A DNA stretch of 40,043 nucleotides from Minisyncoccota bacterium (GTDB lineage Bacteria > Patescibacteriota > Minisyncoccia > Phycocordibacterales > UBA9973): NCBI GenBank assembly GCA_017991515.1, contig JAGOQI010000006.1, positions 1-40,043 of the forward strand, read 5' to 3'. The translations under genes and the position numbers were made by a program. Under the pieces are notes generated by a model that made no database searches, was not told where the DNA came from, and saw nothing but the letters and a program-made list of their open reading frames with translations. Shown piece after piece: positions 9,535 to 9,882 of this stretch. Position 1 is the first letter of the stretch. Each line of letters begins with the position of its first letter.

Positions 9535-9550
9535 CCTAAAAAATCTGTTT

Positions 9551-9606
9551 TGCTGCCGAACCTGGACTCAAACCAAGATAAACGGTACCAGAAACCGTTG
9601 TCCTAC
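9551..9606 (-). pseudogene. 3' part of an interrupted tRNA-Gln (anticodon CTG)
   Basis: From GTAGGAC onward the minus strand repeats the intact tRNA-Gln at 9647-9720 almost base for base through the anticodon arm and T arm. It ends with acceptor strand TTCGGCA (9560-9554), discriminator G and no CCA. That strand does not pair with the intact gene's 5' strand but pairs perfectly with TGCCGAA at 9799-9793, beyond the intact gene. The T loop is TTTGAGT, so the near-invariant C56 is T. It is either a decayed copy or the second exon of a split tRNA; pseudogene is used here as the cautious type. Confidence 0.7.
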
Positions 9607-9782
9607 TTACAAGCGAGTGAATAGGAAATAAAAGATTTTATACGCATGGCTGCCAGACCTGGACTCGAACCAAGATAAACGGTACCAGAAACCGTTGTCC
9701 TACCATTAGACGATCTGGCAGCCATAAGCACAAAATGTTCTTTTATTTCTTTGAACGAGCGCAGTAAGTATGAAATTCATAC
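9603..9782 (-). repeat. Long imperfect inverted repeat with a tRNA-Gln at its tip
   Basis: On the minus strand TACTTAC (9770-9764) pairs with GTAAGTA (9610-9604) next to the exon junctions. A poorly matched internal loop follows. Then AAATAAAAGA (9748-9739) pairs with its complement at 9626-9635. After a three-base bulge, the 15 bases up to 9721 pair with the 15 bases ending at 9646 (G-T wobbles allowed, one mismatch). That stem runs straight into the acceptor stem of the tRNA at 9647-9720. A second small palindrome, GTATGAA-T-TTCATAC, sits at the 5' junction (9782-9768). Confidence 0.75.
9647..9720 (-). tRNA. tRNA-Gln (anticodon CTG), intact
   Basis: Cloverleaf: acceptor TGCCAGA with TCTGGCA, D stem GTC with GAC, anticodon stem ACGGT/ACCGT around loop TTCTGGT (CTG reads CAG), T stem CTTGG/CCAGG around TTCGAGT, discriminator G, then an encoded CCA. 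It is the only complete tRNA in the window with CCA in the DNA, but that CCA is also part of a stem that extends the acceptor by five pairs (ATGGC with GCCAT). The first pair is U1-A72, the known mark by which GatCAB recognises tRNA-Gln; gatC and gatA are present at 21909-23598. The gene lies inside a second, interrupted tRNA-Gln. Confidence 0.93.
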
Positions 9783-9799
9783 CCTTAGACGATTCGGCA
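9780..9799 (-). pseudogene. 5' part of an interrupted tRNA-Gln
   Basis: The minus strand from 9799 reads TGCCGAA-TC-GTCTAAGGGTA: acceptor strand, linker, first D-stem strand and D loop with its GG. It matches the intact tRNA-Gln except for two swapped acceptor bases and one loop base. Those acceptor changes are matched by compensating changes in the 3' part at 9560-9554, so the two parts once formed, or still form, one tRNA. The break falls at the end of the D loop. Confidence 0.7.
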
Positions 9800-9836
9800 A
9801 TAACAAGGCTGATTATACATCAATCAGTCTTGTTAT
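9800..9836 (+). repeat. 15-base-pair hairpin abutting the interrupted tRNA-Gln
   Basis: ATAACAAGGCTGATT (9800-9814) pairs with AATCAGTCTTGTTAT (9822-9836) around a seven-base loop, with one G-T wobble. It starts at the base next to the tRNA 5' end. No T-run follows, so it is not a standard terminator in either direction. Confidence 0.65.
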
Positions 9837-9837
9837 C

Positions 9838-9882
9838 AAGAAATATAAAAAGCATCCATAAAGGACGCTTTTTATATTTCTT
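9838..9882. terminator. Bidirectional intrinsic terminator
   Basis: A 16-base perfect stem (9838-9853 with 9867-9882) has AAAAAGC facing GCTTTTT. The loop part extends it by TCC/GGA. The A and T tracts make it usable from both sides. It separates the minus-strand protein gene at 10172-10708 from the tRNA-Gln locus. Confidence 0.75.

Follow-up and report, generated by a model that had tools for sequence, protein, structure and literature searches.

Split, permuted and intron-bearing tRNA genes occur in archaea (see the reviews PMC3978253 and PMC4033280); in these a tRNA gene is interrupted and its parts can pair within one transcript. Bacterial tRNA genes may contain group I or group II introns, structured insertions that tolerate cargo in their loops. 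Rickettsia palindromic elements are hairpin repeats devoid of genes that invade both genes and spacers. In mitochondria, gene-less hairpin repeats have likewise entered genes and spacers (RHE, PMC2800124), and the REP/BIME repeats of bacteria, with their RAYT systems, are short palindromic non-coding sequences present several times per genome. The locus described here has features in common with each of these systems: a tRNA-Gln gene is split by a long hairpin, probably a diverged copy of a structured repeat, hereafter E, and an intact tRNA of the same kind sits at the hairpin's tip.

The window, that is, the whole stretch of 40,043 nucleotides that was analysed, belongs to a Minisyncoccota genome of 570,666 bases with an estimated completeness of 98%. 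E consists of a hairpin P1 with a CUGC/CUUC loop, a small hairpin P2 and a bulged stem P3, the loop of which can hold an intact tRNA. Read along the minus strand, the nested tRNA-Gln locus of the window is composed of the following features:

9812–9839, minus strand: promoter-like site TTGATA-16 nt-TATAAT, with 11 of 12 consensus bases, positioned for the outer 5′ part (consensus match only).
9780–9799, minus strand: 5′ part of the outer tRNA-Gln, TGCCGAATCGTCTAAGGGTA, with the 5′ strand of the acceptor (TGCCGAA) and the greater part of the D arm.
9769–9781, minus strand: P1-like hairpin TATGAATTTCATA, shortened and without the CUGC/CUUC loop of other copies (fold; comparison with A2/A3).
9745–9756, minus strand: P2-like motif GTTCAAAGAAAT, a TTC-AAA-GAA hairpin followed by AAT (sequence).
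9721–9748, minus strand: left arm of P3, AAATAAAAG, with bulge AAC and ATTTTG...TGGC (fold and arm pairing).
9647–9720, minus strand: inner tRNA-Gln(CTG), intact, with CCA encoded; the working gene (ARAGORN, Rfam RF00005).
9626–9650, minus strand: right arm of P3, GCCATGCGTATAAAAT-CTTTTATTT, opening with GCCA, which is the 3′ end of the tRNA and is paired with the leader TGGC (fold).
9605–9625, minus strand: right tail CCTATTCACTCGCTTGTAAGT, partially complementary to 9769–9756 (fold).
9553–9604, minus strand: 3′ part of the outer tRNA-Gln, AGGACAACGG...TTCGGCA, then GCA, comprising the end of the D arm, the anticodon arm, the T arm with C56>T and the acceptor 3′ strand.

What a previous sequence-only reading had observed at this locus was confirmed. 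The single intact tRNA-Gln(CTG) that it placed between the outer parts, at 9720–9647 of the minus strand, was identified by ARAGORN and by Rfam RF00005 (56.2 bits), and the outer parts lie where it had put them, at 9799–9780 and, for the 3′ part, which begins here at 9604, down to 9553, with the break in the D arm. The outer acceptor strands, proposed to pair with each other, do so at 7/7 positions, and when the two outer halves of the window are joined in silico ARAGORN reads a complete tRNA-Gln(CTG). Six of 70 positions distinguish these joined parts from the inner tRNA. Two fully compensated acceptor pairs make up four of them, the remaining two being a T>G change in the D loop and the T-loop change C56>T, which had also been pointed out. 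The inverted repeat said to run into the inner acceptor stem gave a pairing score of 35 for the arms around the inner tRNA, against a maximum of 26 among 200 shuffles, and folding of 9540–9810 (271 nt), suggested at the time as a check, yielded a structure far more stable than the shuffles (−97.1 versus −64.2 ± 4.4 kcal/mol; z −7.5; 0/200 shuffles equal). What that reading could not see, from one sequence alone, is that the locus holds a recurrent structured element.

A tRNA search over 147 genomes of the family returned several loci with two neighbouring matches, which were then read individually, and a covariance model of the left side of the element (R1) brought in further loci. Nested tRNA-Gln genes were found in 10 of the 147 genomes (that of the window, G005, G038, G061, G064, G104, G106, G125, G130 and G139), with the TTG isoacceptor nested in G005 and G038, as well as in three further records or species assigned to Kaiserbacteria (L194), Nomurabacteria (L196) and, by label, Saccharibacteria (L198). 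These loci follow a common plan, in which the outer 5′ part up to the D arm is succeeded by P1, by P2 and by P3, whose two arms enclose an intact tRNA-Gln, and finally by the outer 3′ part. A tRNA-Leu(TAG) sits in P3 inside a broken tRNA-Leu in a Yonathbacteria record (L174), and G074 retains the left side alone. The points of insertion in the split tRNAs range from the D arm to the anticodon loop. Misassembly is unlikely as the source of the arrangement, because the same plan recurs independently, with different sequence, in at least 12 other assemblies.

Comparison of loci in the same position gives states with and without the insertion. In many members of the family tRNA-Gln(CTG) comes after the gene for CTP synthase, which occupies 12417–10759 in the window; at this place the tRNA is nested in the window, L097, L098, L101, L194 and L196, plain in L006, L008, L009, L021 and L027, and plain with a 5′ relic in L011. 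At the TTG locus G005 and L198 have the nested form, and L013, L015, L016, L017 and the window's own genome, where tRNA-Gln(TTG) is also present, have the plain one. Since the same locus is seen both nested and plain, the outer 5′ part keeps the place of the ancestral tRNA. As a separate observation, the acceptor stems of tRNA-Gln vary strongly among species of one genus (L002–L018), in several genomes of which the CTG and TTG isoacceptors have the same or nearly the same acceptor sequence.

The stems of E are conserved as structures. In 12 copies compared with the tRNA omitted, the 38 pairs proposed for P1, P2 and P3 are formed in 92.4% of cells, 20 of them having changed on both sides, and the covariation score reaches 0.433, against 0.169 ± 0.018 for shuffled data and 0.076–0.127 when the partner strand is slid. 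P1 alone, followed over 69 copies, contains 814 Watson-Crick pairs and almost no mismatches. G-U pairs outnumber A-C mismatches in the stems by 29 to 8 (p 0.0008), and by 21 to 8 (p 0.024) when one column possibly inherited once is left out, p values that are rough because the cells are not independent; an earlier unguided alignment of the arms had given 38 wobble pairs versus 16 A-C. This excess points to pairing, with the RNA of the tRNA strand as the selected molecule. Cargo inspected by eye in 35 copies consisted of tRNAs only, with no ORF seen, and no Rfam family matches E at relaxed thresholds. The window copy shares the anatomy of P3, namely the AAAT start, the bulge in the 5′ strand, the ATTTT/AAAAT segment and the continuation of the stem into the acceptor, together with a P2-like motif. 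Its P1 is short and lacks the conserved loop, an extra stem is present and R1 gives no full-length match, so that we treat it as a diverged member of E on the basis of plan, locus and P3/P2 details instead of model score.

The distribution of E extends beyond glutamine tRNAs. A 35-letter pattern covering P1 and its 3′ flank was searched in 84,980 GTDB genomes and in IMG/VR. It matched 35 stretches in GTDB, where all records with a named phylum or group are Patescibacteria, and viral carriage was set aside, as the exact pattern had zero matches in IMG/VR. In 21 of the 35 stretches a tRNA gene on the same strand (Glu, Ser, Leu or Gln) starts 67–171 nt downstream, and in 16 of these 21 E is preceded by an exact match to part of that tRNA, most often beginning at its first base, that exceeds the longest found in 200 shuffles. 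Copies without a nested tRNA stand upstream of genes for tRNA-Glu, tRNA-Ser and tRNA-Leu, where a truncated copy of the tRNA in question precedes them. Near tRNA-Glu genes of several species the piece that follows E is antisense to tRNA positions 19–37 over 11–15 nt, and at some tRNA-Ser and tRNA-Leu genes the element is closed by the 5′ fragment repeated in antisense. Two tandem units, each opening with the first 12 bases of tRNA-Ser, lie before one intact tRNA-Ser in L166 (G096:C2). Other copies are intergenic with no tRNA nearby. Several copies of E are decayed, and E is missing from most orthologous tRNA loci. Several copies may reside in one genome, four of them 80–94% alike in G063 and two other pairs 87–91% alike. 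E-like P1 hairpins in reverse orientation were also noticed immediately before tRNA-Leu in L112 and L122.

The fate of the outer gene bears directly on its function. In relatives the outer 3′ part starts near the anticodon loop and the anticodon stem no longer pairs; the outer T stem or T loop is broken in L078, L079, L083 and L196, other hairpins have been inserted in L158 and L162, and the 3′ half is lost in G104 and L198. Overall, the anticodon stem, the T arm or a whole half of the outer tRNA has disappeared from most nested relatives. In the window the outer gene carries, besides the D-loop change, the change at the invariant position C56. The outer 3′ half is closest to the inner tRNA of its own genome in 7 of 8 genomes, which suggests that these halves arose locally or are kept alike by conversion. 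The outer gene of the window, with two changes outside the compensated pairs, is young or converted, and therefore its near-intact state is no proof of function. Neither is the compensation in the acceptor, because a working inner gene can account for both double changes by itself. This second tRNA-Gln gene is probably dead.

The sequence-only reading had offered two interpretations, of which a decaying duplicate fits as far as it goes. The other was a functional split tRNA: RNase P and RNase Z would excise the inner gene, while the acceptor stem and the inverted repeat would keep the outer halves together, to serve, joined or nicked, as a second tRNA-Gln. The fully paired outer acceptor, the in silico joined tRNA-Gln(CTG), the strong fold and the promoter-like site before the outer 5′ part would all agree with it, and we nevertheless consider it very improbable, because in relatives E and the inner tRNA are retained whereas the outer halves have decayed. 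Such decay is what that reading itself had set against the proposal, and the halves are not intact across the relatives, having lost anticodon stems, T arms or a whole half. Against it count also the loss of C56 and the altered D loop, the presence of an intact copy in any case, and the tRNA-Gln(TTG) of the genome, expected to decode CAG as well through wobble. A dedicated joining mechanism is not apparent, and Rfam gave no intron match at E-values up to 1 in the window or up to 0.05–0.1 in relatives. The nested arrangement hence traces to E and is unlikely to be a bacterial split tRNA.

Two other explanations deserve attention. Two tandem tRNA-Gln genes might have been rearranged by template switching or gene conversion, so that fragments came to enclose an intact copy, with the inverted repeat produced by quasi-palindrome repair and no special element involved. 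The closeness of the outer halves to their own inner tRNA and the non-canonical P1 of the window are in line with such a history, as are the tRNA fragments that flank many tRNA-Gln genes of the family, which exceed shuffles at 30 of 99 genes in a sample partly biased towards such cases and at 8 of 40 loci that were added irrespective of fragments. Tandem genes by themselves are insufficient, however, since the stems P1 to P3 have sequence in common and covary among genera and E also occurs between genes and at tRNA genes for Glu, Ser and Leu, and we regard this origin as unlikely. Alternatively, E could be a functional RNA device within the pre-tRNA, whose paired leader and trailer, together with the segments antisense to the tRNA, would regulate how the tRNA below is folded or processed. 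The strand-specific wobble bias, the constant orientation and spacing before tRNAs, the 11–15 nt complementary to tRNA-Glu in several species and the pairing of the leader with the CCA end in the window would fit this role, but the intergenic copies without a tRNA, the absence of E from most orthologous loci and the decay of several copies make it improbable as well.

The explanation that we favour, with a probability of roughly 0.7, is that E, a hairpin repeat of Patescibacteria, has inserted in the D arm of a resident tRNA-Gln(CTG), so that the working tRNA-Gln lies in the P3 loop and the outer gene is a relic. It draws on direct observations: the anatomy of the locus, the relatives in which this anatomy recurs and its stems covary, syntenic loci that have or lack the insertion, the decay of the outer halves in relatives, and the E-like copies at other tRNAs. 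Transcription would begin at the old promoter, ahead of the outer 5′ part, and yield a single RNA from which RNase P together with a 3′ nuclease would free the inner tRNA; excision of the inner tRNA from one transcript, as envisaged earlier, is plausible given the TTGATA-16-TATAAT site. Pairing of a leader with the CCA end of a tRNA can hinder RNase P. Release might be slowed at this locus, because the leader TGGC pairs with the encoded GCCA end. The outer halves would then remain as by-products with no decoding role. With less confidence, we propose that E spreads as a mobile or copied element and that an insertion may survive only if the tRNA it has hit is still present as an intact copy.

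The mobility of E is suggested by its dispersal and by the loci with and without it; against it counts that no transposase is linked to E. RAYT-like Y1 transposases (PF01797) are common in the family, scoring above the cut-off in 93 of 146 genomes, and they were discarded as movers of E, since the palindromes flanking them in the inspected Y1_Tnp loci are different ones and E does not stand at the flanks. In the window's genome, for instance, CTAGAACTGTTCTAG is found on both sides of a Y1_Tnp gene. Perfect or near-perfect palindromes (CTAGAACTGTTCTAG, CCAGGAGGCAAGGCCTCCTGG) border RAYT-like Y1 genes on one or both sides in L211 (G000:C17:36263-36946), L212, L217 and L219–L222.

E thus departs in several respects from the systems to which it can be likened. 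The nested locus differs from the split tRNAs of archaea in its bacterial host, in the intact tRNA of like kind that occupies the interruption and in the decay of the outer gene among relatives; nor was a splicing motif identified. As in REP systems, dispersed palindromic copies 80–94% alike exist within genomes, but in the inspected loci no RAYT gene is flanked by the same palindrome, and E is built of three conserved stems and is concentrated, in a fixed orientation, at tRNA genes. Compared by description, it differs from Rickettsia palindromic elements and RHE in sitting inside tRNA genes and in being able to enclose a whole tRNA. Introns and other known RNA families were rejected as its identity for want of an Rfam match at relaxed thresholds, and unlike group I and II introns E has variable insertion points and does not keep its exons. 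No description of nested tRNAs or of E was found in a literature search whose incomplete coverage makes this weak evidence of novelty.

A second structured element lies 3′ of many tRNAs in the window's own genome (L046, L047, L054, L057, L059, L060, L061 and L062; Lys, Leu, Val, Ala, His, Pro and Tyr). It often comprises a hairpin whose loop reads ACTGCT, a segment antisense to the T arm and acceptor of the tRNA, and a GACGGAGC...GCGAGTC stem, sometimes with a distal sense copy of the tRNA 3′ end, which is clear for Val-GAC (L060), and it had no Rfam match. Downstream of tRNA-Leu(TAG) 1830–1914, L114 holds a second tRNA-Leu-like gene with palindromes CCTGCCTGCCGGCAGGCAGG and CCTGCCTGTCCGGTAGGCAG in its D loop and anticodon loop, the stems apparently kept.

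Tentatively, and as a conjecture that we hold to be more doubtful than the insertion of E itself, E and the related 3′-side element could form an undescribed class of structured mobile elements in Patescibacteria. Such elements would enter tRNA genes and provide an intact replacement for the tRNA concerned, which the Gln and Leu forms would carry inside their own hairpin, so that host and element would be tied together.

Taken together, E is an apparently undescribed conserved structured repeat, concentrated at tRNA genes of Patescibacteria and capable of housing a working tRNA within its loop. The case illustrates how, in genomes of some 0.6 Mb, a tRNA gene may be disrupted and its replacement installed at the same site, and it provides concrete loci in the same position with and without the insertion. 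Being strand-specific, missing from Rfam and situated around many tRNA genes of Patescibacteria, E could distort the annotation of tRNAs in these organisms, in which it may be a mobile element associated with tRNAs, or an RNA device, of a new kind.
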